Positions 2,838 through 30,000 of a stretch of 47,119 nucleotides of DNA are shown in pieces. The DNA is taken from NCBI RefSeq assembly GCF_002114285.1, contig NZ_NEDJ01000024.1, positions 1 through 47,119 of the forward strand, written 5' to 3'. The notes below the pieces were generated by a model. The model made no database searches, was not told the DNA's origin, and saw only the letters and a program-made list of their open reading frames with translations. Every line of letters begins with the position of its first letter. Position 1 is the first letter of the stretch. Origin of the DNA: Halorubrum ezzemoulense DSM 17463. GTDB taxonomy: Archaea; Halobacteriota; Halobacteria; Halobacteriales; Haloferacaceae. Position numbers and translations under genes: made by a program.

Positions 2838-5800
2838 TCAGTCGTCGCCGGAGATTTGCCCGGCCGCGTCGGCGTCGGCGTCCGGCACCGCGGCGGCGGG
2901 CGCGGGCGGCTCCTCGCGCACGTCGGCGCCCTTGCCCTCCGCGATGACCTCGGCGTACGCGTCGGGGAAGACGCGGACGAAGTCGTCGAGCGCGGCCTCC
3001 CAGTCGTCGAGCAGTTCGGCCGCGCGCTCGCTGTCGGTGTACTCGCGGTGGTTCTCGACGAGGCGGCGGAGCATCCGCTCGTCGGACCCCTCCAGCGTCT
3101 CGGAGACCGACACCATCCCGCGGTTCACCCGGTCGGCGAACCGGTCGTCGGGGTCGTACACGTACGCGATGCCGCCGGACATCCCGGCCGCGAAGTTGCG
3201 GCCGGTGTCGCCGAGGACGGCGACGACGCCGCCGGTCATGTACTCGCAGCCGTGGTCGCCGACGCCCTCGACGACGGCTCTGACGCCGGAGTTGCGGACC
3301 CCGAACCGCTCGCCGGCGACGCCGTTGACGTACATCTCGCCCGACGTGGCGCCGTACAGACAGACGTTCCCCGCGACGACGTTCTCGGTCGGATCGTACG
3401 ACGCCTCCGCGGGCGTGTCGATCACGATCCGGCCGCCGGAGAGCCCCTTGCCGACGTAGTCGTTGGCGGCGCCGGACAGCTCCAGCGTGATCCCCGGCGC
3501 GAGGAACGCGCCGAAGCTCTGGCCCGCCTCGCCGTCGAAGCGGCACGAGACCGTGTCGTCCGGGAGCCCCTCGCCGCCGTGTTCGGAGACGATGCGGTTC
3601 GAGAGCGTCGCGCCGACCGCGCGGTCGACGTTGCGGATGTCGCGGGTAAGCGCGACCGGCGCACCGTCATCGATGGCGGGCGCGGCCTCGTCGATGAGGT
3701 CCCAGTCGAGCAGGTCGTCGATGCCGCCGTGCGCCTGCTCTCGGACCTTCGTGCGGGACTCGCCGGCGGGCTCGGCGATGACCGCCGACAGGTCGAGGTG
3801 CTTCGCCTTCTCGTGGTCGGTGTCGCGTTGGGCGAGCAGCCCGGGCCGACCGATGAACTCCGCCAGCTCGGTGTACCCCTGCTCGGCCATGATCTCGCGC
3901 AGCTCCTGCGCGATGAACGTCATGTAGTTGATGACGTGGTCCGGCTGGCCGGGGAGCCGCTGGCGGAGGTCCTCGCGCTGGGTCGCGACGCCGACCGGAC
4001 AGGTGTTCTCGTGGCACTGCCGGGCCATCACGCAGCCCGACGTGACGAGCGAGGCGGTGCCGAAGATGTACTCCTCCGCGCCGAGGGCGGCCGCGACCGC
4101 CACGTCGCGGCCGGTCCGCAGTCCGCCGTCGGCCGAGACGCGAATGCGGTCGCGCAGGCCGGTGGCGCGCAGCATCTGGTTCGCCTCCGCGAGCCCGAGC
4201 TCCCACGGGAGCCCGGCGTTCTTGATCGAGGTCTTCGGCGACGCCCCCGTCCCGCCGTCGTGGCCGGAGACGTGGACGACGTCCGCGTTCGCCTTCGCGA
4301 CGCCGGCCGCGATGGTGCCGATGCCGGCCTCCGAGACCAGCTTGACGTTGACGTCGGCCTCGGGACTGGCGGCCTTCAGGTCGAAGATGAGCTGCTTGAG
4401 GTCCTCGATCGAGTAGATGTCGTGTTGGGGCGGCGGCGAGATGAGCCCGACGCCGGGGGTGGAACACCGGACGTGCGCGATCATCTCGTTCACCTTCTCG
4501 CCGGGAAGGTGGCCGCCCTCGCCCGGCTTCGACCCCTGCGCCATCTTGATCTGGAGCTCCTCGGCGTTCGCGAGGTACTCCGAGGTGACGCCGAACCGAC
4601 CGGAGGCGACCTGCTTGACCGTACACTCCTTCTCGGTGTCGAACCGCTCCGGCGGTTCGCCGCCCTCGCCCGTGTTTGACTTCGCGCCTAGGCGGTTCAT
4701 CGCGATGGCGTTGTTCTCGTGGGCCTCGGGCGAGAGGCTCCCGAGGCTCATCGCGGCCGTCGAGAAGCGCTCGACGATCGACTCGACCGGCTCGACCTGC
4801 TCGACCGGCACGGGGTCGCGGTCGGAGTCGAACTCAAGGAGACCGCGCAGCGACTGGAGCTCCTCAGTCTGGTCGTTCACCAGTTCGGCGAACTCCTGAT
4901 ACTGCTCGTAGTCGCCCCCACGGACCGCCTGCTGGAGCGTGCCGACCGTCTGGGGGTTCCAGCCGTGTTTCACGCCCGAGGAGCGGTGTTCGTACTCGCC
5001 GACGGTCTCCAGCTCGGGGTCAGCGCCGAAAGCCATCGCGTGGCGCGTGCGGAGGTCGTCTTCGATCTGCTCGATCCCGATCCCCTCGGTGCGGATCTCG
5101 GTCCCCTCGAAGTACTCGGCGACGAAGTCGGAGTCGAGCCCGACCGCCTCGAAGATCTGGGCCCCCTGGTACGACTCCATCGTCGAGATGCCCATCTTCG
5201 CCATCGTCTTGAGGAGCCCGTCCTCCAGCGCGTGCCGGTACGCCCCGAGCGCCTCGTCCTCGTCCGCGCCGTCTGGGCCGGCGACCACGTCGGCGATCGA
5301 GGCGTACGCGAGGTACGGGTCGACCGCGTCGGCGCCGTAGCCGACGAGCGTCGCGAGGTGGTGGACCTCGTGCGGCTCGCCGGACTCGACGACGACGCCC
5401 GCGCGGTTGCGAAGCCCCTTGCGCACGAGGTGGTGGTGGACCGCGCCGGTCGCGAGCAGGCTCGGCACCGCGAGCCGGTCCGGCCCGACGGCGCGGTCGG
5501 AGAGGACGACCACGTCGGCCCCGTCCTCGATGGCGGCCGCGGCGTCCTCGCGGACGCGGCTCACGGCGTCGACCAGCGAGCCGTCGCGGTCGTAGGTGAC
5601 GTCGACGGTGACGGAGGCGAACGCGGGGCCGTCGGACGCGCCCTCGTCCCCGGGGGTCCGTTCGCCCGGTCCGGGCAGGTCGCGAAGCGCTCCGGTCTCG
5701 GCGTCCGTCAGAACCGGCGTGTCGGCGACGATCTGCTCGGCGTGGGCCGGCGTCTCGGCGAGGAGGTTGCGCTGGTTCCCGATCCGGGTCTCCAGCGAGG

Positions 5801-7526
5801 TGACGAGCTCCTCGCGGATGTAGTCGATCGGGGGGTTCGACACCTGCGCGAACAGCTGCTTGAAGTAGGTGAACAGGGGGCGGTCGACGTCCGCCAGCAC
5901 GGACAGCGGGGTGTCGTCGCCCATCGAGCCGACCGGGTCCTTCCCCTCGGTCGCCATCGGTTCGACGAGGTGGTTCAGCGAGTCGGTCGTGTAGCCGAAC
6001 GCGGCCTGGTGGGCGCGGACGGTCGGCCTCGACTCTTCCCCGTCGCCCTCGGTGGTGGAGTCGGCGCCGATCCCCGCCGCGGCGCCGTCCTCGTCGGTAA
6101 GCGCGTCGAGGTCGACCTGCCCGTCCGCGACCCACTCGCCGTACTTCTCGTCGGTGAGCTCTTCGAACACCTCGTCGTCGGGGACGATCCGGCCCGCCTC
6201 GGGGTCGGCGACGAAGATCTCACCCGGCCGGAGCCGCCCGCGGCGGCGCACGTCGGCGGGCTCGGTCGGGAGCGCGCCCACCTCGCTGCCGACGACGAGG
6301 CGGTCGTCAGTCGTCACCTCGTAGCGGCACGGGCGGAGACCGTTGCGGTCTAGGACGCCGGCGACCTGCTCGCCGTCGAAGCCGATGACGAGAGCCGGCC
6401 CGTCCCACGGCTCGACGAGCGACGCGTGGTAGTCGTAGAAGTCGGTGCGGTCGTCGTTCATCAGGTCGTCGTCACGGAACGCCTCGGGGATCAGCATCCG
6501 CAGCGCGTGCGGGAGGTCGCGGTCGGTCTGGAGGAGGAGTTCGAGCGCGTTGTCGACGCTCGCAGTGTCGGACTGGTTCGGGTCGTCGATCACCGGCTTG
6601 ATCGTGTCTAGCTCGGCCCCGAACGCCGGGTGGTCGAGGTCGGTCTCGCGGGCCCGCATCCAGTTGACGTTCCCGCGGATCGTGTTGAACTCGCCGTTGT
6701 GGACGATGTTGCGGTACGGGTGCGCGAGGTGCCACGCGCCCAGCGTGTTCGTCGAGAACCGCGCGTGGACTAAGGCGACGTGGCTCGCGAACCGCTCGTC
6801 GGTCAGGTCCGGGTAGTAGTCGGCGAGCTGCGACCCCTTCAACAGCCCCTTGTAGACGACGCGTTGCCGGTCGAGCGAGCAGACGTAGAAGCGGCCGGCG
6901 CCGTCGACCTCGGACACCGCGTTCTCGATCTCGCGCCGGGCGGCGTACAGCGCGCGGTCGAAGCCGAGCAGGTCGGGATCGGCGTCGTCGGCCCGGTCCT
7001 CCTCGCTGGTGAACCGCTGGGCGAGCCCCGCGCCCTCGACGGGGGCGACGAACACCTGCGACACCTCGGGCTCCGAGTCGAGGGCCGTCGCGCCGAGGTC
7101 GGAGTTGTCAGTCGGAACCGACCGCCACGCGAGCACCTCCAGCCCGTAGACGGCGCACACCTCGGCGATGACGTCGTGGATCTCCGCCTGAACGCTCGGC
7201 TCCGGGGGCATGAACACGGAGCCGACCGCGTACTCTTCGGGGAGGTCCGCCTCGACGACGTCGCGGAATAACGCGTCCGGCCGTGCGACCATGATCCCCG
7301 CGCCGTCGCCGGTGTTTTCCTCGGCACCCGTCGTCCCGCGGTGTTCGAGGTTTTCGAGCAGAGAGACCGCGTCCGTGACGGTCTCGTGCGTGGGCGCGCC
7401 GTCAAGGTCGACGACGCCGCCGATCCCGCAGTTCGACCGGTCGTCCGTCGGATCCGCGAGTCCCCCCTCCTGACCCGAGGGCTCCGAGTCGCGTACGCCC
7501 CGGGTGGTACTACGTGACTTGGTCAT
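2838..7526 (-). CDS. gltB: Glutamate synthase, large subunit (ferredoxin-type)
   Basis: This enzyme transfers the amide nitrogen of glutamine to 2-oxoglutarate, the second half of GS-GOGAT ammonia assimilation. The 1562-residue protein has an N-terminal class II glutamine amidotransferase domain whose catalytic Cys is C33 (NCGIGG), preceded by a 32-residue propeptide that must be removed. A central domain and an FMN/TIM-barrel domain follow, with the 3Fe-4S cysteines in CVMARQCHENTCPVG. The C-terminal glutamate synthase beta-helix domain carries repeated Gly-rich turns. I chose the ATG at 7526 because the in-frame ATG 63 bp upstream sits only about 10-15 bp from the TATA box and would be at or before the transcript start. 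No small subunit (gltD) lies in the window, so reduced ferredoxin is the likely electron donor. A dyad lies just upstream of the promoter. Confidence 0.95.
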   Translation of the reverse strand: MTKSRSTTRGVRDSEPSGQEGGLADPTDDRSNCGIGGVVDLDGAPTHETVTDAVSLLENLEHRGTTGAEENTGDGAGIMVARPDALFRDVVEADLPEEYAVGSVFMPPEPSVQAEIHDVIAEVCAVYGLEVLAWRSVPTDNSDLGATALDSEPEVSQVFVAPVEGAGLAQRFTSEEDRADDADPDLLGFDRALYAARREIENAVSEVDGAGRFYVCSLDRQRVVYKGLLKGSQLADYYPDLTDERFASHVALVHARFSTNTLGAWHLAHPYRNIVHNGEFNTIRGNVNWMRARETDLDHPAFGAELDTIKPVIDDPNQSDTASVDNALELLLQTDRDLPHALRMLIPEAFRDDDLMNDDRTDFYDYHASLVEPWDGPALVIGFDGEQVAGVLDRNGLRPCRYEVTTDDRLVVGSEVGALPTEPADVRRRGRLRPGEIFVADPEAGRIVPDDEVFEELTDEKYGEWVADGQVDLDALTDEDGAAAGIGADSTTEGDGEESRPTVRAHQAAFGYTTDSLNHLVEPMATEGKDPVGSMGDDTPLSVLADVDRPLFTYFKQLFAQVSNPPIDYIREELVTSLETRIGNQRNLLAETPAHAEQIVADTPVLTDAETGALRDLPGPGERTPGDEGASDGPAFASVTVDVTYDRDGSLVDAVSRVREDAAAAIEDGADVVVLSDRAVGPDRLAVPSLLATGAVHHHLVRKGLRNRAGVVVESGEPHEVHHLATLVGYGADAVDPYLAYASIADVVAGPDGADEDEALGAYRHALEDGLLKTMAKMGISTMESYQGAQIFEAVGLDSDFVAEYFEGTEIRTEGIGIEQIEDDLRTRHAMAFGADPELETVGEYEHRSSGVKHGWNPQTVGTLQQAVRGGDYEQYQEFAELVNDQTEELQSLRGLLEFDSDRDPVPVEQVEPVESIVERFSTAAMSLGSLSPEAHENNAIAMNRLGAKSNTGEGGEPPERFDTEKECTVKQVASGRFGVTSEYLANAEELQIKMAQGSKPGEGGHLPGEKVNEMIAHVRCSTPGVGLISPPPQHDIYSIEDLKQLIFDLKAASPEADVNVKLVSEAGIGTIAAGVAKANADVVHVSGHDGGTGASPKTSIKNAGLPWELGLAEANQMLRATGLRDRIRVSADGGLRTGRDVAVAAALGAEEYIFGTASLVTSGCVMARQCHENTCPVGVATQREDLRQRLPGQPDHVINYMTFIAQELREIMAEQGYTELAEFIGRPGLLAQRDTDHEKAKHLDLSAVIAEPAGESRTKVREQAHGGIDDLLDWDLIDEAAPAIDDGAPVALTRDIRNVDRAVGATLSNRIVSEHGGEGLPDDTVSCRFDGEAGQSFGAFLAPGITLELSGAANDYVGKGLSGGRIVIDTPAEASYDPTENVVAGNVCLYGATSGEMYVNGVAGERFGVRNSGVRAVVEGVGDHGCEYMTGGVVAVLGDTGRNFAAGMSGGIAYVYDPDDRFADRVNRGMVSVSETLEGSDERMLRRLVENHREYTDSERAAELLDDWEAALDDFVRVFPDAYAEVIAEGKGADVREEPPAPAAAVPDADADAAGQISGDD

Positions 7527-7596
7527 ACGTCTCGCTTCGAATGAACAGGTAAAGGCATGACCCTGATAGGGGTAGGATCCATCGTACACACATTAG

Positions 7597-8043: not shown

Positions 8044-8739
8044 TCACGAGTTGCGGCCGCGGCGCCGAGCGAGCAGCGACGCGCCCGCGATCGCCGCGGC
8101 CGACGCGACGGCACCGAACCCGGGGAGGTCGTACGCGGTCGAGCGTATCGGCGCGTCGTCGTATCCGAGGTCGCTCGGGGCGACCGAGTCGGAAGATGAA
8201 CCGCTCGCCTCGGACGACGTCGACGACTCGGCCGAATCGGTCGACTGCGCGTCCACGCGCTCGTCGGCGCGGTTCGCGGTCGACTGCTCACCGCCCGAGG
8301 GGTCCGCAGGGCCGGGTCCGTCACCCCCGGTGAGGCCGCCGGTACCGAAGGCCTCGGACGGCCCGGCAGACGACGGGATATCGGTGCGACCCGGAGCGAC
8401 CGAGATCCCTACGTCGGGGGGACGCGTCGAGCGATTCGCGTCCACGCCGGTCGACCCTCCCGTGGGGTCCGAACGGTTGCTGGCAGCGGCGTCGGCGGAG
8501 TCTGGTGGAGTAGTAGTGTCCGACGGAACGGCGGGATCAGCACCACTTCCGGCGTTAGCGGGGGCACTACCCGGACCGTCGCTCCCGTCCGACTCCCTAC
8601 CTGTCGAACCACCCCCGGCGACCGGCCCGCCACCGGGGGCCGCCGACCCGCCGCCGCTGGCCGGCCCGCCGCCAGACGCGCTAGTGCCCGCCGTCGCCCC
8701 GGACGGGTTCGCCGCCGTCGGGCCGCCCGGCGCGCTCAC
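8044..8739 (-). CDS. C-terminal part of the surface glycoprotein: Gly/Pro/Ser stalk and PGF-CTERM anchor (out of frame)
   Basis: This 231-codon frame encodes a low-complexity Gly/Pro/Ser/Thr/Asp-rich stalk and ends with DLPGF, a hydrophobic Ala-rich helix and an RRRGR tail. That is a textbook PGF-CTERM signal, with PGF at residues 206-208. PGF-CTERM proteins are exported, cut by archaeosortase A and lipid-attached, so they need a signal peptide. This frame has none. It starts with GTG overlapping the TGA of the upstream repeat-bearing frame (GTGA), and the upstream frame has a signal peptide but no anchor. I infer that the two are one gene separated by a -1 frame shift, which could be a sequencing slip, a real mutation, phase variation or programmed recoding. 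Confidence 0.8.
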   Translation of the reverse strand: MSAPGGPTAANPSGATAGTSASGGGPASGGGSAAPGGGPVAGGGSTGRESDGSDGPGSAPANAGSGADPAVPSDTTTPPDSADAAASNRSDPTGGSTGVDANRSTRPPDVGISVAPGRTDIPSSAGPSEAFGTGGLTGGDGPGPADPSGGEQSTANRADERVDAQSTDSAESSTSSEASGSSSDSVAPSDLGYDDAPIRSTAYDLPGFGAVASAAAIAGASLLARRRGRNS

Positions 8740-11705
8740 GGCCGTCGATCCGTTCCGCCGAACGCTCGGTCCGTCTCGACAGTTGCGTTGGCACTACGCG
8801 ATTGATCTGTTCCGGCGGTCTCGTTGTCGCTGAGCGATTGGTTCGTTCCGACCGTTTCGTTACCACTGGGCGATCGGTTCGTTCCGACCGTTTCGTTACC
8901 ACTGGGCGATCGGTTCGTTCCGGCCGTCTCGTTGCCACTAATCGATTGATTTGTTCCGGCCGTCTCGTTGCCACTGAGCGATCGGTTTGTTCCAGCCGTT
9001 TCGTTGCCACTAATCGATTGGTTCGTTCCGACCGTTTCGTTACCACTGGGCGATCGGTTCGTTCCGGCCGTCTCGTTGCCACTAATCGATTGATTTGTTC
9101 CGACCGTCTCGTTGCCACTGAGCGATCGGTTTGTTCCAGCCGTTTCGTTGCCACTAGTCGATTGGTTCGTTCTGGCCGTCTCGTTGCTACTGAGCGATTG
9201 ATTCGTTCCGGCCGTTCCCTCGGGCGTCGCGTTCTCCGCGAGGGAGTCGGCCGGATCGAGAGCACCGTAGGTCAGGTTGGTCGTCACGCGGTGACGGTCG
9301 TTCGCCGCGGTCTCGCGCAACCGATCGTCGTCAACTCGGAACGTGCCCTCGAACGTCTCGCCCGGATCGGGCGGTGTCTCGGTGCCGAACGCGTGCTCTC
9401 CGTCGGCGACGAGGAACAGGCCGTCCCGGTCGAGGTGGACCGCGGATTCGTTCGGCATCCGGCCCACTGCCTCGCCCTCGGTCGAACCGTTCGCGTCGTC
9501 CGCGTCTGCCGGTGCCACTCCGAACGACAGGCCGTCGAGACGAGCAAGGTCCTCCCCGCGTTCCAGCGACGCGTTCGCGGCCGCAGGAAGGCCGGTGAGT
9601 CCGGACGCATTCACCCCGTACACGACCGTGTCGTTCGCGGTCGCAGTCGCGGCGGGTGCGAGCGTTCCGTCGGCGATCGCCTCGCGTATCTCGGTCGCGT
9701 TCGCGAAGTCGCCCGCCGAGGCCGCCCGCGTCGTGTACGCGGTCAGGTTGCCAGTCGAGCGGGGTCCGACCGTGACCGTGGCGGTATCTGTGGCGGTCTC
9801 GGTGCCGTGTTCCGACCGCAGCGTGAGATTATACGTTCCGGGCGAGAGCGGGTCAGTATGGCCCGTGACCGACTCGATGTCAACTCCGGACCCCGTCGTG
9901 ACGAACGCTGAAGAGTTCGGCGACGCATACGTGTTGACCGATACGGGAGTGGGTCCCGTATCAGTAGTTGTCATTTCGAGTGCTGTTGTACTGTTACCTG
10001 TCGTATTGGCAAGAACAAGTTCCAAATCTGGGACACTATGAGACAAAGAAGTCTTGATAGAGTCCGCATAAGCAACTCGGCTGGGGGAATCATTCAAACT
10101 GATGTCTTTTTTCTCTCGCCCAATAATGTCAAATTTTCTTGTGTTTCCAGTATTCGTGTGAATATAATATGTACCTGAAGATAGCAGTGAAGTGTTATAC
10201 TGAATGTAGGATGAATTATTCACCCGCGTGCCTACTGAAACGACACGGGTTGTGTTGTCCTTACTAATTTTGTGTAATTCGACACTTTTTGGGTCTGAAG
10301 GACTTCTATAACAAATGGGTTGGCCAGAATATACTGGTTTATTTAGCGACTCGTTACGTTTAATGTGGATACCTTCTGAGCAGGAGACGTTTGTGCTAAC
10401 AGTGGTTATTGAAATAACACCGCCATCTGCAACACCGTCGGAAACAAACTGCTCATTAAGATCAGAGTTACGAAGCAGCTCGGAATCCCTCGGAGAAATC
10501 CAGTCACCACCGCTATAGTCACGTGCTAGTTGAATAGCAACAGCATAACGATTACTGCGGAAAATACCACGCTTGTAAGTTGTAGTGTTGAAATAGAGAG
10601 AGACATTGTCATTCCATCCTGTCAGGACTTTCGAATTAGCTATTATATTATCTTTTAGAATATATCCAGTTGAATTGACTGGATGAAGTGATACAAAGAA
10701 TGGAGTCTTTTCATCAATTGTATCAGAAACTCTGGCGAAAGAAACTACAATTTTATTTCTCTGTGGACTGCTATATGATCGATTATGGAAATATACATCT
10801 GCGGTAACAATGCGCCCACTATCAGTGGACAATGCCGAAGAGGTCATATTGGGGGGTAATTGTTCTAAAGTGCTATAATCAGAATCACCAAGAGTGGAGT
10901 TAGCAACAAGAAAAGCCTTGACATCACCTCCAGGGTGTGCTGTATCCACAGAAATTGATTCTTTCTGATTGAAAGTATTTATAGAGACACCTCGTTGTCC
11001 AATCACTTCATTCTCATCGTCACGTGTGATGAATAATGTAGAATTTGTATTCCCACTAAGATTGTCAACTGTTATTCCAATTGTTGTGGGTGTATTTCGA
11101 TGTAACTGTGGTGAGCCAGTCGCCTGATCTGGGACGTTAAGAGTACCGTCAATGATTTTGAACGGACTTGTATTTGACACATCTTGTATTTCTCTAGAAG
11201 GATGTGTAGAACTATTAGTGACGCCGACACTATATGTTAGCTTCTCTGATTTACTTGCGTTATTTGTGGCAATTCCAGATATTTGAGCAGAGTCAATTTG
11301 TATTGAGTGAGCCGTTTTATTGGGACGAATAGTTGCTGTTAAAAATGACTTATGGTCAGAATTCAGGTAGGAAGTATTAGTTACAGATCCATTTTGAATG
11401 CTATTAATTGATATTGAAGCAGAAGAGGTGCGAACACCTTTTGATTTAACGCTAGTCAGGTTCACAAACAATTTGATACTTTGAACACTGTCTGCTTGAT
11501 TTAATATAATGCTTATATTACTAATGTTTTGACTGGATTTGCCTACCCGAAGACTATCTGGACTGCCAGATTTATTTAAATAGACGCTCTGATCAGAATT
11601 TTGGGCTGTAACGGTATTTGCGCCGAGCAGTAGCGCAACAGTAACAATTACCAGACAGGCAACTATTCCGACCGACACCCATCGAAGCGATCGCGTTCGG
11701 ATCAT
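8736..11705 (-). CDS. Large secreted surface glycoprotein, N-terminal part (signal peptide, ectodomain, sequon repeats)
   Basis: The 989-codon frame begins with a Sec-type signal peptide: basic MIRTRSLRW, a hydrophobic core to about residue 33, and a likely cut after TVTA. About residues 25-575 are a Ser/Thr/Asn-rich ectodomain encoded by AT-rich DNA (about 10,000-11,620) with codon use unlike any neighbour. About residues 580-830 are GC-rich and contain a segment resembling haloarchaeal BGTF/DUF7827-type surface domains (PDPGETFEGTFRVDDD). Residues 831-974 are twelve 12-residue repeats of the form TAGTNQSxSGNE, each with two N-x-S/T sequons. The frame then stops, while the missing PGF-CTERM anchor lies in the next frame. 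The intact product would be a heavily glycosylated, archaeosortase-processed cell-wall protein. It is not clearly the main S-layer protein. Confidence 0.85.
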   Translation of the reverse strand: MIRTRSLRWVSVGIVACLVIVTVALLLGANTVTAQNSDQSVYLNKSGSPDSLRVGKSSQNISNISIILNQADSVQSIKLFVNLTSVKSKGVRTSSASISINSIQNGSVTNTSYLNSDHKSFLTATIRPNKTAHSIQIDSAQISGIATNNASKSEKLTYSVGVTNSSTHPSREIQDVSNTSPFKIIDGTLNVPDQATGSPQLHRNTPTTIGITVDNLSGNTNSTLFITRDDENEVIGQRGVSINTFNQKESISVDTAHPGGDVKAFLVANSTLGDSDYSTLEQLPPNMTSSALSTDSGRIVTADVYFHNRSYSSPQRNKIVVSFARVSDTIDEKTPFFVSLHPVNSTGYILKDNIIANSKVLTGWNDNVSLYFNTTTYKRGIFRSNRYAVAIQLARDYSGGDWISPRDSELLRNSDLNEQFVSDGVADGGVISITTVSTNVSCSEGIHIKRNESLNKPVYSGQPICYRSPSDPKSVELHKISKDNTTRVVSVGTRVNNSSYIQYNTSLLSSGTYYIHTNTGNTRKFDIIGREKKDISLNDSPSRVAYADSIKTSLSHSVPDLELVLANTTGNSTTALEMTTTDTGPTPVSVNTYASPNSSAFVTTGSGVDIESVTGHTDPLSPGTYNLTLRSEHGTETATDTATVTVGPRSTGNLTAYTTRAASAGDFANATEIREAIADGTLAPAATATANDTVVYGVNASGLTGLPAAANASLERGEDLARLDGLSFGVAPADADDANGSTEGEAVGRMPNESAVHLDRDGLFLVADGEHAFGTETPPDPGETFEGTFRVDDDRLRETAANDRHRVTTNLTYGALDPADSLAENATPEGTAGTNQSLSSNETARTNQSTSGNETAGTNRSLSGNETVGTNQSISGNETAGTNRSPSGNETVGTNQSISGNETAGTNRSLSGNETAGTNQSISGNETAGTNRSPSGNETVGTNRSPSGNETVGTNQSLSDNETAGTDQSRSANATVETDRAFGGTDRRP
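8784..9215 (-). repeat. Twelve 36-bp minisatellite units within the surface glycoprotein gene
   Basis: Twelve head-to-tail 36-bp units each encode 12 residues of the pattern T-A/V-G-T-N-Q/R-S-x-S-G-N-E. The first and last units are the most diverged (SSNE, and DQSRSANA), and the inner ones alternate NQS and NRS forms. Each unit carries two N-glycosylation sequons (NQS or NRS, and NET across the junction). The unit length is a multiple of three, so whole-unit gain or loss would change stalk length without breaking the frame. Confidence 0.92.
10000..11620. other. AT-rich island inside the surface glycoprotein gene
   Basis: This interval is visibly AT-rich with many A/T third positions, while both the signal-peptide end (about 11,620-11,705) and the distal coding part (below about 9,960) have the GC-rich composition of the rest of the window. 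The reading frame stays open across both borders. The simplest inference is that the exposed ectodomain was replaced by recombination with foreign or divergent DNA while the export signal and anchor were retained. The borders are approximate, judged by eye. Confidence 0.7.
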
Positions 11706-11954: not shown

Positions 11955-12617
11955 TCAGTGCTCGACCGCTTCCATCATCGAGAGGAGTTGGTCAGACTGG
12001 TCGATCTCGACGGGATGGACGCCCACCAGCGCGATCACGTCGTCGTCGTGCTGGACGGTGCCGATGTAGACGAGGACGGGAATGTCTTCGACAGAGCCGC
12101 TCTGACCGCCGTCGCCACTGACCTCCGCGCTGACGGTGGTTTCGAGGATCGAGACGGAGGTTTCCTCGTCGAGGATCGTCCGAGTCTCCTCACCGCGCTT
12201 CTCGATGTCGTCGGCTTGGATGTCGGTGCCGTTGCCGCCGATCCCTTGCTGGTCGACCTGACTGAGGAGCCGCCGGATGAGCTCCGCGTCGTCGGCCCGG
12301 ACGAGCGGATTGACCGACTGCCCGCCGATCGAAGCGTTGGGGGTACTCGCCACGAACAGCGCTGATCCCACCGTCTGGTTGGTGTAGCGGGCGATCCACG
12401 TCGTTGCGGACACGTCCGCGTTCACGCCCGCGGCGTTGAACTCCTGATCGATGGTGAACGACTCCGGATCCTCACCGGAGAACCCCTCGGCGTACGCGCT
12501 CTCCGGGATGCGCGCCGGTTCGGCGTCGAACTCGTAGCTCCCGTCCTCGCCGGCGCACCCGGCGATTGCGACCGAAGTCGACGCTGCGAGCGCCGCGAGC
12601 CGCCCACGTCGTTTCAT
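11955..12617 (-). CDS. Secreted lipoprotein, DUF6517-like
   Basis: The 220-residue protein starts MKRRGRLAALAAS, a signal peptide ending in the lipobox IAGC with the lipidated Cys at residue 21, so the mature protein should be anchored to the outer face of the membrane. The body (FDAEPARIPESAY, then an EFNAAGV segment, then FVASTPNASIGGQSVNPL) resembles the haloarchaeal DUF6517 lipoprotein family as I remember it. The function of that family is unknown. The ATG at 12617 was chosen because it places the lipobox correctly; the upstream in-frame extension overlaps the divergent promoter and is Arg/Pro-rich shadow sequence. It is transcribed divergently from the membrane protein at 12731. Confidence 0.85.
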   Translation of the reverse strand: MKRRGRLAALAASTSVAIAGCAGEDGSYEFDAEPARIPESAYAEGFSGEDPESFTIDQEFNAAGVNADVSATTWIARYTNQTVGSALFVASTPNASIGGQSVNPLVRADDAELIRRLLSQVDQQGIGGNGTDIQADDIEKRGEETRTILDEETSVSILETTVSAEVSGDGGQSGSVEDIPVLVYIGTVQHDDDVIALVGVHPVEIDQSDQLLSMMEAVEH

Positions 12618-12730
12618 GCGTTCGGGTAGGTCTACGCAGTTCTTTAAGCCTATCGGCGCGGGTATCGGTCGCGAGAACCCCGCAGCCGAAGGCACAAAGT
12701 TCACGTCGGGCCGCGCGCGACGTGAGGCAA

Positions 12731-13498
12731 ATGGAACGCCGAGGACAAACCGGGCTGGTGGAAGCGCTCTTCTTGGACGTGGTCCGCCTCCACGAGACGT
12801 GGATGGAAGTCGTCTTCCCGCGACAGCTCGACCCGAGCGCGGTCCTGGGGAAGTGGAAGCCCGAGACGGCCGTACAGTCGGTCGGCTACTACCTCTGGGC
12901 CGTGCTAGGTGCGCCGCTCGTCGCGGTCGCGTACCCACTGCTGCTCGTCGGGTTCGCCACGCGCTACTACGCGGCGAAGCTCGACTCGGCGGTCACCCGG
13001 ATCGGCGTCGCCGGCGCGGTCGTCGTCGCCGCCGTCGTCTGGGGGACGCTCACGGTAATCACGCACCTTCAATTACCCTTTGACGCCGTGATCGCGGTCG
13101 GCGCCGCCAGCGCGGTCGCCGTCGTCTCGGCCGCCTTCGCCGCCGGCTTCTCGAAGCTCGGCGGGCGGTTCGTCAGCGTGTTGCTCGCGTACCCGTTCGC
13201 GATGACGGCGCTGTTCTTACCGCCGGTTGTCGCGGCGCTCGTCACGCCGACGTTAGAGGAGCTGATCCTCCCGCCGAGCTACGAGCTCGCGCGGTGGATC
13301 CTCGACACGTTCCTTTCGGTGGGCGGGATCAACGAGACGCTCCGCGGCGCGTTCGACTTGGAGACCTTCGGCGAGCAGTGGGGGCTACCGGGACTGGGAT
13401 ACGTCCTGATGTGGATCGGCATCTCAGTTCCGCTCGGGTGGTTCCTCGGACTGCTCGTCGCGCTGGCGAATCTGATCCGACCGGCCGAAGACGCCTGA
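12731..13498 (+). CDS. Multi-helix membrane protein, haloarchaeal, function unknown
   Basis: The 255-residue protein has a soluble N-terminal stretch of about 45 residues (MERRGQTGLVEALF, then HETWMEVVFPRQLDP) and about five hydrophobic segments, near residues 47-75, 85-110, 117-140, 148-175 and 222-248. The loop between the last two (LEELILPPSYELARWILDTF) is amphipathic. I see no catalytic or transport motif. The ATG at 12731 is preferred over upstream in-frame starts because those lie in the divergent lipoprotein promoter region and encode Arg-rich shadow sequence. It converges with the HNH-like gene downstream with only a 59-bp gap. Confidence 0.78.
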   Translation: MERRGQTGLVEALFLDVVRLHETWMEVVFPRQLDPSAVLGKWKPETAVQSVGYYLWAVLGAPLVAVAYPLLLVGFATRYYAAKLDSAVTRIGVAGAVVVAAVVWGTLTVITHLQLPFDAVIAVGAASAVAVVSAAFAAGFSKLGGRFVSVLLAYPFAMTALFLPPVVAALVTPTLEELILPPSYELARWILDTFLSVGGINETLRGAFDLETFGEQWGLPGLGYVLMWIGISVPLGWFLGLLVALANLIRPAEDA

Positions 13499-14067: not shown

Positions 14068-14123
14068 ACCCGTCGGTGGGGGTGGAGTCACTTCAATTCG
14101 GTCGGCCACGGCGTGCGGCCGTC

Positions 14124-14187
14124 GCGGAAGGCGTCGGGGCCGTTCAGACGAGACTGCGGAAGGCGTCGGAGCCGTTCAGACGAGGCT
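14124..14187. repeat. Two tandem 32-bp copies across a gene's 3' end
   Basis: Copies at 14124-14155 and 14156-14187 match at 30 of 32 positions. The second copy contains the last codons and stop of the phosphodiesterase-like gene (stop at 14176), and the first lies just beyond it. This is a local tandem duplication of a gene end that leaves the protein intact. Confidence 0.85.
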
Positions 14188-15522
14188 GGCACCGTCGAAG
14201 TCCGTGCGGCCGTAGTCGATGTCGAGCAGTCGGAGGAGGGTGGGGGCGACGTCGAGGAGGTCGGCGTCGTCGACCGTCGCGTCACGGTGGTCGACGAACA
14301 GCGCGGCGTCGTCGAAGGCGTGCATTCCCGTCCGCGGTCCGTCGGGGTCGAAGACGCCGTCGTGGGGACGGAACCCGGACTTGAGGTCGAACCCGTCGTT
14401 CGGGAGGACGACGAGGTCGGGAGCGATGGCGGCATGGTCGCCGCGGAACACCGTCTCGCGGTCGACGACGCGGTCTGCGACGGGATTCCCGTCGGGGCCG
14501 GTCCACGACTCCAGCGCCTCGCGTAGCTCCGCGCGCGTCGCCTCGTACTCGCCTTCGGGGACGACGCCGTTCGGCTCGCGGCCCTCCACGTTGAGGTAGA
14601 AGCGGCCGGGGACGAGCGAGTACGCGCGGGCGTCGTCGTCGACGTCGGCCAGCGAGTCGGGGTCGTCGTCCGCGTAGGAGATCCACCCCTCGCGTTCGAG
14701 CCACTCGTTACAGTACACGTCGTACCGCAGGCGCCTGAACCCGTGCGTCGAGCCGACAACGAGCGTGACGTCGCTGGGGAGCGCCTCGCGGATCGAGCCG
14801 ACGTGTTCGTCCATGGCGGCGTGGAACGAGAGCAGGTCCTCGCGGTACTGGCCGCCGTCCTCGTAGTCGCCCCACAGGAAGTGGTTGACCCGGTCGGGGG
14901 CGGTGAAGACGCCGACGAAGAGGTCCCAGTCGTCGCGCTCGACGTACCGCTCGAAGGCCTCGGCGCGGGCGTCGAGTGTCTCGCGGGCGTGGTCCAGGAA
15001 CGCGGTCTTGTCCGCCTTGTGTCCGAGTTTCGCGTTGACGGACAGGCGGTAGTCGCTGTCGGCAAGGTACTCGCGGAACTCGTCGGGATGCGCGGCCGCG
15101 TCGAGGTCGGGGGAGAGGTAGCCTGAGACCATCCGCTGGACGGTCCGCTGCGGCGGGAACGTGACAGGGACGTTCATCACGGTCGCGTCGAGTCCCGCGT
15201 CGGTCGCGCGGTCCCAGACCCGGGGGCGCTGCACGTCGCGTCCCATCGGCACGTACGTGTCGTAGGAGCCGACTTCTCGGTCCTGAAAGCCGTACACGCC
15301 GGTCTCGCCGGGGTTCGTCCCCGTCGTGAGGCTCGGCCAGCAGGCGCTCGACTCCGCCGGGACGATGCTGTCGATCTGTCCCCCCTCACCGTCGTCCGCG
15401 ATCGCCGACAGCGTCGGGAACGTCTCCGGGTTGTCGGCGACGAGCCGGTACGAGAGGCCGTCGATCCCGATGAACGCCACGCGCGGCGTGTCGCTCCCTC
15501 GCAGCCGGTCGAAGAGGCCCAT
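14176..15522 (-). CDS. Alkaline-phosphatase-superfamily phosphodiesterase-like protein
   Basis: The 448-residue protein has the fold landmarks of type I phosphodiesterases and nucleotide pyrophosphatases: a metal-binding Asp in FIGIDGLSYR near the N-terminus, the nucleophile loop SACWPSLTTGTNPGETGVYG, an H in VNHFLWGD, and a late metal His in GMHAFDD. In the usual SDHG metal motif this protein has STHG (VVGSTHGF), so one expected Asp ligand is replaced by Thr. Haloarchaeal relatives often sit in glycosylation or sulfatase-like contexts, but here the neighbours give no hint. It has no signal peptide, so it should act in the cytoplasm. The ATG at 15522 (MGLFDRLRG) was preferred over one two codons upstream. 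Confidence 0.85.
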   Translation of the reverse strand: MGLFDRLRGSDTPRVAFIGIDGLSYRLVADNPETFPTLSAIADDGEGGQIDSIVPAESSACWPSLTTGTNPGETGVYGFQDREVGSYDTYVPMGRDVQRPRVWDRATDAGLDATVMNVPVTFPPQRTVQRMVSGYLSPDLDAAAHPDEFREYLADSDYRLSVNAKLGHKADKTAFLDHARETLDARAEAFERYVERDDWDLFVGVFTAPDRVNHFLWGDYEDGGQYREDLLSFHAAMDEHVGSIREALPSDVTLVVGSTHGFRRLRYDVYCNEWLEREGWISYADDDPDSLADVDDDARAYSLVPGRFYLNVEGREPNGVVPEGEYEATRAELREALESWTGPDGNPVADRVVDRETVFRGDHAAIAPDLVVLPNDGFDLKSGFRPHDGVFDPDGPRTGMHAFDDAALFVDHRDATVDDADLLDVAPTLLRLLDIDYGRTDFDGASLV

Positions 15523-15769
15523 ACACACTCATCTGCGGTCGAGGGCAAAAGGATTGACATCGGACGCTCCGGGGAGTGCGGTCCGACGGGCCTCGGAGTC
15601 GAAGCGCTTGTTGGGTCGAGTTCGTCATGTCGGTAACGACCGGGGCGTCCGCGACGGCCCCGGACCCGCGACGACCGCGCACTGGCGTCGCCGCTCCGCT
15701 CGGGAAGGACCCCGTCCGCCTCGGAGCGCCTCGGGAGGCTTTTTGTTCGCGACCTCGGAGGGGTTCGAC

Positions 15770-16678
15770 ATGGAGACCCGACGCGCGCTGCTCGTCGACG
15801 CGTTCGCCGCGGAGCCGCTGGCCGGGAACGCCGCCGGCGTCGTCCCCGACGCAGAGGGGCTGAGCGACGAACAGCTGGCCGCCGTCGCCGCCGAGCTCGG
15901 CGCCTCGGAGACGGCCTTCCTGACCGGGGCCGACGGCGCGGCCGACGACCGGCTCCGGTACTTCTCGCCGGCCACGGAGGTCGACCTCTGCGGGCACGCC
16001 ACGATCGCGATCTACGGCGCCCTGTTCGCCGAGGGAGCGATCGACGGCGGCGAGCGCACGCTCCGCACGAACGTCGGCGACCTCAGCGTCGCGGTCGACG
16101 CCGACGGCACCGTGTGGATGCGACAGCAGGCGCCGAGCGTCGAGGTCGTCGACGTCGATCTCGACCGGGTCGCGGCCGCGCTCGGCGTCGACCCCGCCGC
16201 GCTTCGCGACGTCGGCGCGGACCTCCCCGCCGCGGTCGCGTCCACGGGCCTCCCGTTCCTTGTCGTCCCAGTGAACTTCTTGGAGCGGCTCGGCGAGGCC
16301 GACCCGGACGACGCGGCCGTCGAGCGCCTCTCCGAGGAGTTCGACGTCGCCGGCGTGTACGCGTTCTCCTTCGACGCGCTCGACGCCGACTCGACGGCCC
16401 ACGGTCGGGCGTTCGTGCCCTCACTGGGGATCTCCGAAGACCCGGTCACGGGCACCGCGAGCGGAGCGGTCGGCGGATACCTCCGTCACGTCGACGCCTT
16501 CGACGGGGACGAGCCGGACGAGCTCCGCTTCGAGCAGGGCCACTTCCTCGACCGACCGGGCCGCGTGCGCGTGCGAGTAGAGGCGGACGGCGTCCGCGTC
16601 GGCGGTCGGGCGACGGTCGCGCTCGACGGTGAGATCCGGATCCCCGGCGGCGAGGACGACGAGATCATCGAGGCGTGA
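15770..16678 (+). CDS. PhzF-family isomerase/epimerase-like protein
   Basis: The 302-residue protein has the PhzF hallmarks: an N-terminal VDAFAAEPLAGN, SETAF with a Glu (E47) in the place of the catalytic acid, the conserved FSPATEVDLCGHAT, and the second-domain signature DPVTGTASGAVGGYL. Family members catalyse isomerisations by general acid-base chemistry without cofactors (phenazine, allo-threonine or unknown substrates). No phenazine genes are nearby, so the substrate is unknown and a metabolite-repair or amino-acid role is only possible. The ATG follows a TTTTTGTT stretch and is divergent from the phosphodiesterase gene. Longer in-frame extensions upstream are shadow sequence. Confidence 0.88.
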   Translation: METRRALLVDAFAAEPLAGNAAGVVPDAEGLSDEQLAAVAAELGASETAFLTGADGAADDRLRYFSPATEVDLCGHATIAIYGALFAEGAIDGGERTLRTNVGDLSVAVDADGTVWMRQQAPSVEVVDVDLDRVAAALGVDPAALRDVGADLPAAVASTGLPFLVVPVNFLERLGEADPDDAAVERLSEEFDVAGVYAFSFDALDADSTAHGRAFVPSLGISEDPVTGTASGAVGGYLRHVDAFDGDEPDELRFEQGHFLDRPGRVRVRVEADGVRVGGRATVALDGEIRIPGGEDDEIIEA

Positions 16679-16728
16679 TCCCGTCGCGGAGACCGAACGT
16701 TTAGCATCGCTCGCGACGTACCGAAATC

Positions 16729-16923
16729 ATGGAATTCGACCTTCCACGCGCGGCAGCGATCCTCGTACTGATCGTCGCGGTCGGCGCCGGCGGCCTCATC
16801 GGCGCGGAGATGATGCCCCTCCAGACGACCCTGATGATGGTCGTCCCGTCGATGCTCGTCTTCGGCGGGCTCGCGTTCGCGATCGGCGTGAAACACGGCG
16901 AGTTCCGGGCGGGACACGCCTGA
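16729..16923 (+). CDS. Tiny two-helix membrane protein
   Basis: The 64-residue protein MEFDLPRAAAILVLIVAVGA has two hydrophobic helices (about 8-27 and 34-54) and a short polar end HGEFRAGHA. It resembles a small haloarchaeal membrane family (DUF7333-like, from memory). The ATG is 50 bp after the PhzF stop and the same strand is used, so the two may be co-transcribed. There is no functional evidence. Confidence 0.75.
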   Translation: MEFDLPRAAAILVLIVAVGAGGLIGAEMMPLQTTLMMVVPSMLVFGGLAFAIGVKHGEFRAGHA

Positions 16924-17033
16924 ACCGATCGAAGGGGCGGCCGAGACCCGCCTCGTAGCGAAACGGTAACGGCCGCCACCTCGGGCGGTCGCGGATCACG
17001 ACCCTTTTGAAACGCCGTTGCGAACCGGGAGCC

Positions 17034-17984
17034 GTGCTGCCCGGGTCGCCACTCCTCGAACTGCTGTTGATCGCCGTCGGCGTCGCCCTCCTGTACGCCG
17101 GCGCCGAACTGCTCGTCGCGGGGGCGAGGGACCTCGCGCTCGCCGTGGGGCTGAAGGCGTCGACGGTCGGCGGCACCGTCGTGGCGTTCGCGACGACGGC
17201 CCCGGAGCTTTTCGTCTCCCTGCTCGGCGCCGTCACGGTGTCGACGGACATCGGACTCGGCGCGATCGTGGGCTCGAACATCGCGAACATCGGGCTCGTG
17301 TTGGGGGTGTCGGCGCTGATCCGCCCGCTCAACGTCTCCGACACGGTGTTTCGCCGTGACGTCCCGTTCATGGTGCTGGCCGCGCTGCTGTTGGTCGGCC
17401 TCGGTTGGGACGGGCGGATCGGGTTCCTCGACGGCGTCGTGCTGCTCGGGACGCTCGTGGCGTTCACCGCCGCGGTGCTGCGACGCGTCCGGGAGAACCA
17501 GTCGGCGATCACCGACAGCGAGCGGGACGAGATGCCGGACGCGAAGGCCCGCGACATCGCGATGGTCGTCGCCGGGATCGCGGCGCTCGTCCTCGGCTCG
17601 CGGTGGCTGATCGACGGCAGCGAGTCGCTGCTGGCGGCCGCCGGCTTCTCGGACATCTTCATCGGACTCACCGTGCTGGCGCTCGGCACGTCGCTGCCGG
17701 AGCTGGCGGCCAGCGTCGTGGCCGCGGTGCGCGGCGAGGCGGAGTTCAGCGTCGGCAACGTCGTCGGCTCGAACATCTACAACATCCTCGCCGTCATCGG
17801 CATCGTGGCCGTCGTGACGCCCATCGGCGTCGCCCCGGGCGTTCGCGGCTTCGAGTTCCCCGCGCTGCTCGCGTTCACGGCCGTCATCGTCGGCATCATG
17901 GCGTACAGCGAGCGGATCACCCGCGTCGACGGCGCGGTCCTCACCGTCGGATACGGGGCCTTCGTCTATCTGTTGCTCCCGTAG
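17034..17984 (+). CDS. Sodium/calcium exchanger family membrane antiporter
   Basis: This 316-residue CaCA-family antiporter has about ten transmembrane helices and two inverted alpha repeats. The first carries VAFATTAPELFVS and GSNIANIGLVLG; the second carries LALGTSLPELAAS and VVGSNIYNILAVIG. The Glu in each (PEL) and the Asn in GSN bind the cation in known relatives. It would extrude Ca2+ (or another cation) against Na+ or H+ across the cell membrane. A cytoplasmic loop of about 30 charged residues separates the halves. I chose the GTG at 17034 (MLPGSPLLELLL); an in-frame TTG at 17007 is possible but lies inside an AT-rich promoter-like patch. No regulator is adjacent. Confidence 0.9.
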   Translation: MLPGSPLLELLLIAVGVALLYAGAELLVAGARDLALAVGLKASTVGGTVVAFATTAPELFVSLLGAVTVSTDIGLGAIVGSNIANIGLVLGVSALIRPLNVSDTVFRRDVPFMVLAALLLVGLGWDGRIGFLDGVVLLGTLVAFTAAVLRRVRENQSAITDSERDEMPDAKARDIAMVVAGIAALVLGSRWLIDGSESLLAAAGFSDIFIGLTVLALGTSLPELAASVVAAVRGEAEFSVGNVVGSNIYNILAVIGIVAVVTPIGVAPGVRGFEFPALLAFTAVIVGIMAYSERITRVDGAVLTVGYGAFVYLLLP

Positions 17985-21656: not shown

Positions 21657-22619
21657 ATGTTCGGCCACGGCGCGCCGGCGGTGTTGAGCGTGATTCCCGA
21701 CACGTTCACGTTCGCGTGGATCGTCGCGATCCTCTTCGCGACGGCGTGGCTGCTCGACGAGCGCGGGCTGGCCGCCGGTCGCGCGCTCGCGGCCGGGACG
21801 TGGGCGCTGTTCGGGCTCTTCTGGCTGTCGACGGTGCCGTACTTCGCGTTCGAACACCAGAGCTACGTCGAGTCGATCCTTGCGCTCGTCGGCTTCCCCG
21901 CCAGCGTGTACGCGGGGTATCTCCTCTACGACGGGCGCGCGTCGCTTTTCACGCTCACGCGGGCCATCGCGATCATGCTCTTCATCTACCTCCCGTTCGA
22001 GACGATCCCGGCGTTCACCGTCGGCGGGGTCGCGGTCCCGGAGCCCCGCCGGATCCTCATCGAGGTCGTGGCGACGCAGACCGGTGCGCTCATCGACCTG
22101 CTCGGGTACGCGCCGGAGGCGGTGACGAGCAGGGAGGGGTACGAGGCGGCGTACTCGTGGACGCTGGACGACGGCCACACCGTCATCATCCACATCGTAC
22201 TGGCGTGTACGGGGCTGGGGAGTATGGCCATCTTCGGCGGCCTCGTCGCCGCCGTCGAGGCGCCGCTCGCGCGGAAGCTCCGCGCGCTCGCGGTGTCGAT
22301 CCCGCTCATTTACGTCCTGAACATCTTCCGGACGACGTTCATTTCGGTGGTGTCTGGCAACCAGTACATGCACTGGTACCCGGACCTGGTGATGACGATG
22401 TTCGGCGCGACCGACCCGTACCGGGTGTCGTTCCTCATCTCCGACCGGATCATGAGCCAGCTGCTGGCGGTCGTGGCGCTCATCGCGATCACCTTCCTCG
22501 CGGTGCGCGAGCTACCCGAGCTCGCGGTCATCTTGGAGGACGTGCTCTACCTCATCACCGGCGAGGAGCACGACCTGACCGAGGCGCTCGACCTGCCGCG
22601 CGAACCGACGAACCGATAG
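21657..22619 (+). CDS. artA: Archaeosortase A
   Basis: This integral membrane transpeptidase-like enzyme cuts PGF-CTERM surface proteins and joins them to a membrane lipid. The 320-residue protein has about eight hydrophobic segments. The catalytic Cys is C184 in LACTGLGSM, and the Arg residues are R225 (NIFRTTF) and R264 (ISDRIMS). The spacings of 41 and 39 residues equal those of the experimentally tested triad in Haloferax volcanii ArtA (C173, R214, R253, from memory), which strongly supports the assignment. It follows spt5 by 121 bp on the same strand and stands 10 kb from a PGF-CTERM substrate gene. Its C-terminal 30 residues are acidic and cytoplasmic. Confidence 0.95.
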   Translation: MFGHGAPAVLSVIPDTFTFAWIVAILFATAWLLDERGLAAGRALAAGTWALFGLFWLSTVPYFAFEHQSYVESILALVGFPASVYAGYLLYDGRASLFTLTRAIAIMLFIYLPFETIPAFTVGGVAVPEPRRILIEVVATQTGALIDLLGYAPEAVTSREGYEAAYSWTLDDGHTVIIHIVLACTGLGSMAIFGGLVAAVEAPLARKLRALAVSIPLIYVLNIFRTTFISVVSGNQYMHWYPDLVMTMFGATDPYRVSFLISDRIMSQLLAVVALIAITFLAVRELPELAVILEDVLYLITGEEHDLTEALDLPREPTNR

Positions 22620-24079: not shown

Positions 24080-24454
24080 TCAGGAGATGTGTGCGGCGAT
24101 GTCCGTCGACGACATCATCCCGACGTAGTCGTCGTCGACGACCGGGAGGTGTTTCACGCCGTACATGGTCATCATCGCGGCGACCTCCTCCAGCATGAGG
24201 TCCGGCGTCACCGTCTCGACGTCCTCGGTCATCACGTCGCGGACCGTCGTCGCCTCCGGGTCGCTCCCGTTGGCGACCGCTCCGACGACGTCGCTCTGCG
24301 TGAGGATACATCCTCCGCCCGTCGTCACGACGAGCGCACTGATGTTCTCGTCGCGCATCCGCCGGGCGGCCTCCCGGAGCGGCGCGTCCGCCCCGATCGT
24401 CTCCAAGGGCGTCGACATCACGTCCGCGACGCGGGTCCTGTCGTCGAGATCCAT
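24080..24454 (-). CDS. CBS-pair protein 1
   Basis: The 124-residue protein is just two CBS motifs (Bateman module): VADVMSTPLETIGADAPLRE to VVTTGGGCILTQSD, then VRDVMTEDVETVTPDLMLEE to MMSSTDIAAHIS. Bateman modules bind adenosine nucleotides such as AMP, ATP or S-adenosylmethionine and sense energy state. With no fused effector domain, it would work by contacting a partner. A second single-module CBS gene follows upstream on the same strand, so they may be paralogs that form a heterodimer. The ATG at 24454 was preferred, although ATGs at 24481 and 24499 are in frame. Confidence 0.85.
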   Translation of the reverse strand: MDLDDRTRVADVMSTPLETIGADAPLREAARRMRDENISALVVTTGGGCILTQSDVVGAVANGSDPEATTVRDVMTEDVETVTPDLMLEEVAAMMTMYGVKHLPVVDDDYVGMMSSTDIAAHIS

Positions 24455-24568
24455 ACCGCGCTGTGTGTTACCATGTTTCATTACTCTTCCGGAACGCACA
24501 ACGCGACGCGATCTCGACTCGGATGCGGCGCCGTCACGCGGCCTCGGGCCGTCCCGGCGCCCGACCCG

Positions 24569-24955
24569 TCAGCCTCGCCGCGAGAGGTACGCCGTGAGGT
24601 CCGTCGTGGAGACCATGCCGATCGGTCTGTCGTCGCCGTCGGTCACCGGGAGGTGGGTGTAGCCGTGTGCGGTCGGCTCCGCCAGCTCCGCGACGGTGTC
24701 TTCGCGGCCGACCGTGACCACGTCGGTCGTCATGAACGCCTCGACCGGCGTCCGGTCTTTCGGGTCGTTGTCCCGGACGAGGGCGACGAAGTCCGTCGCG
24801 GTGATCAGCCCGGCGAGGGCCCCGTCGGAGTCGAGGACGAGGAGAGAGCTACCCCCGGACTCGCGCATCTGCTCCGCCGCGTCGGCCGCCGCGGCCCCGC
24901 GTTCGATAGTCGTCAGGTCGGTCGACATGAGTCGATCTACCGGCACGTCATTCAT
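24569..24955 (-). CDS. CBS-pair protein 2
   Basis: The 128-residue protein is a second stand-alone Bateman module: VDRLMSTDLTTIERGAAAAD to LVLDSDGALAGLITATDF, then VEAFMTTDVVTVGREDTVAE to GMVSTTDLTAYLSRRG. The layout equals that of CBS-pair protein 1, but the sequence has diverged, so the duplication is old. It is separated from the first by about 110 bp, with no T-tract, so one message is possible. Start: ATG at 24955; another ATG four codons upstream is possible. Likely ligand AMP or ATP, not demonstrated. Confidence 0.85.
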   Translation of the reverse strand: MNDVPVDRLMSTDLTTIERGAAAADAAEQMRESGGSSLLVLDSDGALAGLITATDFVALVRDNDPKDRTPVEAFMTTDVVTVGREDTVAELAEPTAHGYTHLPVTDGDDRPIGMVSTTDLTAYLSRRG

Positions 24956-25031
24956 GATGCGTGCCAACGCCCCACATAATAATCAAACGTGCGGTCGGTT
25001 CGGGGGCGTTCGCCTCGCGACCGCGGACGCC

Positions 25032-28905: not shown

Positions 28906-28923
28906 GGTGACAAACGTACTCAT

Positions 28924-29352
28924 ATGAGTACTGTATCGACAGAGGAACGGATCCTTTCCGTGTTAGAAGAGGACGCACAGGCGTCCTGCGGGGAGATCGC
29001 CGAGCGAGCCGACGTCTCGAAACCGACGGTGCGGAAGTACATCGACCGCCTCGAGGAGCGCGGCGTGATCGTCGGCTACTCCGCGGAGGTCGACCCGAAG
29101 AAGCTCTCTTCGCAGTCGATCGCCATGGTCGGCATGGATGTCGACTCGGGGCGGTACGTGGAGGCCACGCGGGATCTGAAGTCGCTCGACGAGGTTCAGG
29201 CGCTGTACACCTCCTCGGGCGATCACATGCTGATGGCGGAGGTCCGCGCCGGCGACGGCGACGAGCTCGGCGACGTCATCTCGGAAAAGCTGCTCGGCGT
29301 CGACGGCGTCACCGCGGCCCACCCCTCGTTCCTCCAAGAGCGGCTGAAGTGA
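28924..29352 (+). CDS. lrpA1: Lrp/AsnC-family transcription regulator (LrpA1-like)
   Basis: The 142-residue protein has an N-terminal helix-turn-helix (about 15-50, CGEIAERADVSKPTVRKYIDRLEERGVI cut to key parts: ADVSKPTVRKY) and a C-terminal RAM (ligand-binding) domain with the conserved TSSGDHMLMAEV. Lrp proteins form octamers and respond to amino acids. It lies directly after porAB on the same strand. In Halobacterium I recall lrpA1 in the same position, where it controls an aspartate aminotransferase gene; here its targets are unknown, and porAB or gltB are reasonable suspects. The name rests on position and general similarity, not on a search. Confidence 0.85.
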   Translation: MSTVSTEERILSVLEEDAQASCGEIAERADVSKPTVRKYIDRLEERGVIVGYSAEVDPKKLSSQSIAMVGMDVDSGRYVEATRDLKSLDEVQALYTSSGDHMLMAEVRAGDGDELGDVISEKLLGVDGVTAAHPSFLQERLK

Positions 29353-29391
29353 GTCGGCCGAGAAGCGGTTCGTTTTGACTGTCGACGCCTC

Positions 29392-29865: not shown

Positions 29866-30000
29866 GTTCGACCGTGAGTAAAGAACGCACCTATAGGTTT
29901 CGGGATGCGAATTGTTCCCACAGTATCGGTCGACGAAAGCTCCGACTCGTCGGGCGAGGATCGCGACGCGTTAAGCGAAAGCCACGGCCCGTCGGGGTCG

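Follow-up and report, generated by a model that had tools for sequence, protein, structure and literature searches.

A sequon-dense 36-bp repeat array as the likely stalk of a predicted Halorubrum surface glycoprotein

Some bacterial surface proteins have stalks that vary in length (PMC8201768). In the Periscope Proteins, an N-terminal head is carried on a stalk of tandem folded domains, and the copy number of the repeats sets stalk length (PMC8201768). In archaea, the S-layer protein csg of Haloferax volcanii (structure 7PTP) has a signal, a chain of Ig-like domains, a spacer of O-glycosylated Thr before the anchor, and PGF-CTERM/ArtA processing (PMC8640222). The homeoalleles, or homeocassettes, of Halorubrum ezzemoulense are highly divergent versions that reside at one place between near-identical core genes (PMC11078007). 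A literature search on archaeal sequon tandem repeats and N-glycosylation-repeat stalks found nothing on point.

The stretch of DNA analyzed here, termed the window (47,119 nucleotides from H. ezzemoulense DSM 17463), contains a tandem array of 36-bp units near the 3' end of a long open reading frame (ORF), with a PGF-CTERM sorting signal beyond it (Table 1). The array likely functions as a membrane-proximal, glycan-ready stalk of an ArtA-type Halorubrum surface glycoprotein, and would evolve in length rather than act as an on/off switch.

As in csg, the predicted protein has a signal, a possible chain of Ig-like domains, a spacer before the anchor, and a tail suited to PGF-CTERM/ArtA processing, with glycosylation of the spacer predicted here. 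Unlike that of csg, the spacer is made of N-sequon repeats. A PDB sequence search for related solved structures found none that is convincing for the stalk protein, and the major S-layer gene of the genome is separate. The identification of the array-bearing gene as that gene was rejected, because the over-cut-off match to TIGR04216 sits on contig C132 and not here. The predicted protein shares with Periscope Proteins a head on a tandem-repeat stalk whose length would follow copy number. However, the 12-residue unit is too short to fold alone, the stalk is probably a glycan-coated disordered chain, and the two systems are not related. The locus is like the homeoalleles in holding highly divergent versions at one place between near-identical core genes, but here just the head of one gene appears to be exchanged, and across species of the genus; the report on homeoalleles makes no mention of PGF proteins or glutamate synthase (PMC11078007). 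Other haloarchaeal proteins expected outside the cell also carry tandem short N-x-T units, although both units and proteins differ. An example is a COX2-like protein (L107) with a C-terminal sequon repeat of the GNETATGNETA type, and similar short repeats are present at L108 and L115.

We propose a design in which an export signal is followed by an AT-rich head, an Ig-like C-terminal domain, the stalk, a Gly/Ser linker, and the PGF-CTERM signal. Archaeosortase A would cleave this signal, presumably with lipid anchoring of the protein. If both sequons of each repeat are used by AglB, the stalk would be extended and coated with glycans, a spacer holding the head clear of the membrane. Gain or loss of whole in-frame units would then change spacer length, so that the spacer evolves without switching anything on or off. 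As assembled, a register step of probably one base splits the stalk from the anchor right behind the array.

Table 1. Features of the array-bearing gene and other genes of the window
Feature	Position	Strand	Remarks
DUF6517 gene	11955..12938	minus	Conserved upstream neighbor
ORF of 989 codons	8736..11705	minus	Signal-like N-terminus, head, C-terminal domain, and sequon array; stop at 8736-8738, right past array
Head region, class A	10206..11705	minus	~40% GC, GC3 mostly 0.2-0.4, in a window of 69% GC; varies between species
Conserved C-terminal domain region	9219..10205	minus	Residues 501-829; predicted beta-sandwich domains; retained with either head class
36-bp array	8778..9209	minus	12 head-to-tail units, GT-N-x-S-x-S-G-N-E-T-x; TRF and coding-frame reading
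Degenerate 13th unit	8742..8777	minus	Adjoins array; best alignment to unit lacks one base near 8755/8754
Tail in other frame	8044..8793	minus	Gly/Ser/Pro-rich linker, conserved DLGYDDAPIRSTAYDLPGFG segment, hydrophobic stretch, RRR end
PGF-CTERM archaeosortase sorting signal	8059..8124	minus	Pfam PF18204, 20.5 bits (cut-off 18.8)
Glutamate synthase large subunit gene (gltB)	2838..7589	minus	Conserved downstream neighbor; presumed name, from reading the sequence
Archaeosortase A gene (TIGR04125)	21714..22577	plus	336.6 bits (cut-off 75); expected to process tail

TRF detects a period of 36 bp with 11.9 copies at 8786-9215 (score 522) and, over the same array, a higher-order period of 144 bp (90% match). 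In the coding register, the array consists of 12 exact 36-nt units that run from 9209 down to 8778 on the minus strand, all in one frame. This agrees with an initial annotation of the window, which had described twelve tandem 36-bp units and pointed out that the unit is a multiple of three; the strand was absent from it. The same annotation gave two sequons per unit and up to about 24 sites in 144 residues. The array is indeed dense in N-x-S/T sequons, but holds 23 of them in its 144 residues, because units 1-11 have two each and unit 12 (GTDQSRSANATV) has a single one. The unit number of 12 is the assembled count in a draft assembly of 155 contigs, and tandem arrays of this kind can be miscounted in short-read assembly (PMC6868369). 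Open frames other than the coding one also cross the array (8681-9265, minus strand, 194 aa; 8802-9911, plus strand, 369 aa), because the repeat is free of stops and its unit is a multiple of three.

Orthologues of the first 829 codons are present in 48 of the 51 other genomes of the genus. Named matches to the array-bearing gene are nearly all from Halorubrum, beyond which the gene family fades. An alignment-based scan of named genomes yielded 23 loci, unlike a scan with a single protein as the query, which yielded zero matches. In almost all named loci that cover both flanks, the gene order is DUF6517, the array-bearing gene, and gltB. The stalk protein is 28-71% identical over the best segment, versus ~83-94% for the gltB product in relatives. 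In H. yunnanense (G051:C39:1589-4055; L032, L089), the orthologue is seemingly two ORFs in different frames, split between the head and the C-terminal domain. In H. californiense (L012/L080), unreadable bases occur in the linker, and the frame of the tail is untraceable across the gap.

An archaeal surface-protein setting, as the initial annotation supposed, fits the PGF-CTERM tail and the presence of archaeosortase A and AglB-type genes in the same genome. The AglB-type oligosaccharyltransferase gene, elsewhere in the genome, is over its cut-off; together with the sequons, it gives the protein, at the level of sequence, what is expected of an N-glycoprotein. In Hrr. lacusprofundi, aglB has been deleted (PMC10384203). 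The tail has the PGF motif, hydrophobic stretch, and basic C-terminal end of an archaeosortase A substrate according to Pfam, and scores 18.3 bits with NCBIfam TIGR04126, under the cut-off of 24.5. With an ArtA gene also in the genome, the array-bearing gene is predicted to encode an archaeosortase-type surface glycoprotein of Halorubrum. The archaeosortase A gene is in the same window, and ~10 kb separate it from this gene for a likely substrate.

The tail is out of frame with the exported protein in this assembly, whereas in at least 32 relatives the ORF is continuous into an in-frame PGF tail. The array frame stops at 8736, while a stop at 8794 bounds the anchor frame, which has more stops inside the array. 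The register step falls between 8794 and 8736, where the frames overlap by 57 bp. Relative to the array, the anchor is read in the -1 frame, and GC content by codon position also changes frame across the array/anchor junction. Alignment of the degenerate 13th unit with the repeat unit scores 37 (shuffles have a mean of 19.7, and 0 of 500 score as high), and beyond the missing base the register of the repeat unit is that of the anchor frame. Thus, the frame break probably reflects one base lost in this unit. A local sequence or assembly error and a recent inactivating mutation at the edge of the array are about equally possible. A real break would leave a protein that is secreted and then shed.

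Among the 12 units, unit 4 is identical to unit 8, and units 5, 9, and 10 are identical to one another. Units 2-5 differ from units 6-9 at 3 of 144 bases, far below the divergence between species. These near-identical 144-bp blocks and identical units imply one four-unit and one one-unit duplication, both recent. They also bear out the in-frame unit turnover that the initial annotation thought possible, and the proposal that stalk length evolves by tandem duplication and loss of whole in-frame units is well supported by these patterns.

Between the last predicted Ig-like domain and the PGF-CTERM anchor lies a linker, which here is taken up by the array. Linkers measured at this position in relatives, with one genome per species, are ~178-416 aa long, mostly Gly/Ser-rich, and mostly have 0-2 sequons. 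At least three relatives have unrelated sequon-dense repeats at this position, among them H. xinjiangense (54 bp x 7.2), Halorubrum sp. 48-1-W, and G049, and in these three the ORF continues in frame to the PGF tail. No second copy of the 36-bp array was detected in 170 genomes of the family, where matches were confined to chance frames and to other, short sequon repeats, and the array pattern had 0 matches in viral contigs.

The abundance of sequons could be a by-product of an Asn/Ser/Thr-rich composition, in which case the array would be a flexible hydrophilic spacer that is mostly unglycosylated. Nearly sequon-free linkers of similar length in most relatives are in keeping with this explanation, as is the loss of one sequon in unit 12. 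Moreover, three of the 23 sequons are followed by Pro (N-R-S-P), which is usually a poorly glycosylated context. However, when the residues of the array were shuffled 5000 times, the mean was 7.8 sequons and the maximum 15, and the recurrence, in three other species, of sequon-rich repeats of unrelated sequence at this place also argues against composition as the cause. Furthermore, units 1-11 contain 15 distinct variants, all of which keep the sequons, whereas 26 of the 108 possible changes would remove one (p ~ 0.016, if changes are equal and independent); this is modest evidence that the sequons are kept. A plain spacer is therefore rather unlikely, and for the glycan-ready stalk that we favor, we infer that the Asn residues of the array carry glycans. 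Because near sequon-free Gly/Ser linkers fill the same place in most relatives, these glycans may be dispensable.

The initial annotation had also proposed a contingency locus, in which slippage switches the frame of the anchor and thus, if phase-variable, produces anchored and shed forms. The anchor is in another frame directly behind the repeat array, as such a switch would have it, and the tail is still recognizable as PGF-CTERM, which suggests that the break is recent or reversible. However, copy change in a contingency locus alters frame or expression, and whole-unit slips in this array cannot switch the frame, because the unit length, 36 bp, is a multiple of three and the 12 units are all read in the same frame. 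The single out-of-register step maps to the degenerate unit, outside the exact repeats, and neither a homopolymer of five or more nor another short tract was found at the array/anchor junction. Given that at least 32 relatives are plainly in frame, we consider the switch very improbable, and this part of the annotation is not supported. Programmed ribosomal frameshifting could use the -1 relation of the two frames to join array and anchor, with two products, but inspection by eye of the 57-bp overlap revealed no slippery heptamer (X-XXY-YYZ), and no relative needs such an event; we give this explanation almost no credence. There is an even chance that the repeat led to a sequencing or assembly error here and that the true gene is in frame, which is compatible with the stalk interpretation. 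The break lies where a tandem array ends, in a draft of 155 contigs; read in the anchor frame, the tail has homology and the composition of coding sequence, and the gene is intact in relatives. Against an error, the assembly is generally frame-clean: a comparison of ~33 kb of the window with G048 showed no other convincing frame break. Real disruptions of the gene also seem to exist, such as the two ORFs in G051. Apparent frame changes versus G048 at 24129-24970 and 28923-29878 were rejected on the basis of the ORF list, as antisense or upstream read-through of stop-to-stop ORFs.

An AlphaFold2 model of the protein (from an alignment of 18 sequences) is all-beta and of moderate confidence, with a mean pLDDT of 69.8 and pTM of 0.39, and is best at residues ~510-690. 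With VIA-align, matches to single Ig-like domains reach Z of 9.7 (94 residues). The H. volcanii S-layer protein aligns with Z of 9.4 over 355 residues spanning 181-819, domain-wise only (rmsd 25 A over the chain), and the C-terminal part of the Nitrosopumilus S-layer protein with Z of 8.5 over 193 residues (4.4 A). The model is consistent with Ig-like domains in a chain, which is a common arrangement and indicates no function. Foldseek and VIA matches to complement, TEP, and alpha-2-macroglobulin chains were set aside as generic Ig-like beta-sandwich similarity, and matches in a viral library were mostly to generic Ig/FN3-type proteins.

The head of the protein, whose swapping was absent from the initial annotation, differs in composition from the remainder of the gene. 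GC3 is ~0.3 across the first ~500 codons and rises sharply to ~0.8 near 9950, and an AT-rich/GC-rich contrast between the halves is present in all 17 named Halorubrum orthologues measured. Two classes of head, A and B, occur at one locus (L079-L101), in a classification that left out H. sodomense (L084) and H. yunnanense (L089). The classes are unconnected by blastp, but profile comparison joins them over the first ~240 residues, including the signal peptide, with a probability of 97%. In a gltB tree, well-supported sister pairs carry unlike heads: the window (A) pairs with H. coriense (B; 98/96), and H. distributum (B) pairs with G048 (A; 96/94). The starred branches of this tree alone force at least 5-6 changes of head class. 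This discordance implies that heads have been replaced repeatedly at one locus, and the heads thus appear to be swapped between sister species at a fixed position.

More tentatively, the gene could be a genus-wide, fixed-position locus of surface diversity, in which two anciently diverged AT-rich heads are repeatedly exchanged between species onto a conserved base, and Gly/Ser or N-glycan stalks, the latter having arisen perhaps four times, set the height of the head; viruses or mating specificity may be the driver. In haloarchaea, such AT-rich heads, swapped at a fixed locus, would be a candidate for what viruses or mates recognize on the cell surface. If the glycosylation sites are used, then the nearly sequon-free, 54-bp, and 36-bp stalks of this one family form a natural series that probes the role of N-glycans in spacer length and stability in salt.

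Two other features of the window are of note. A 32-bp direct repeat with two copies (93% match) lies at 14124-14188, between the genes at 14109 and 14176. At 15326-17981 (plus strand), a PhzF-like gene and its downstream neighbor are separate here and form one stop-to-stop ORF in G048.
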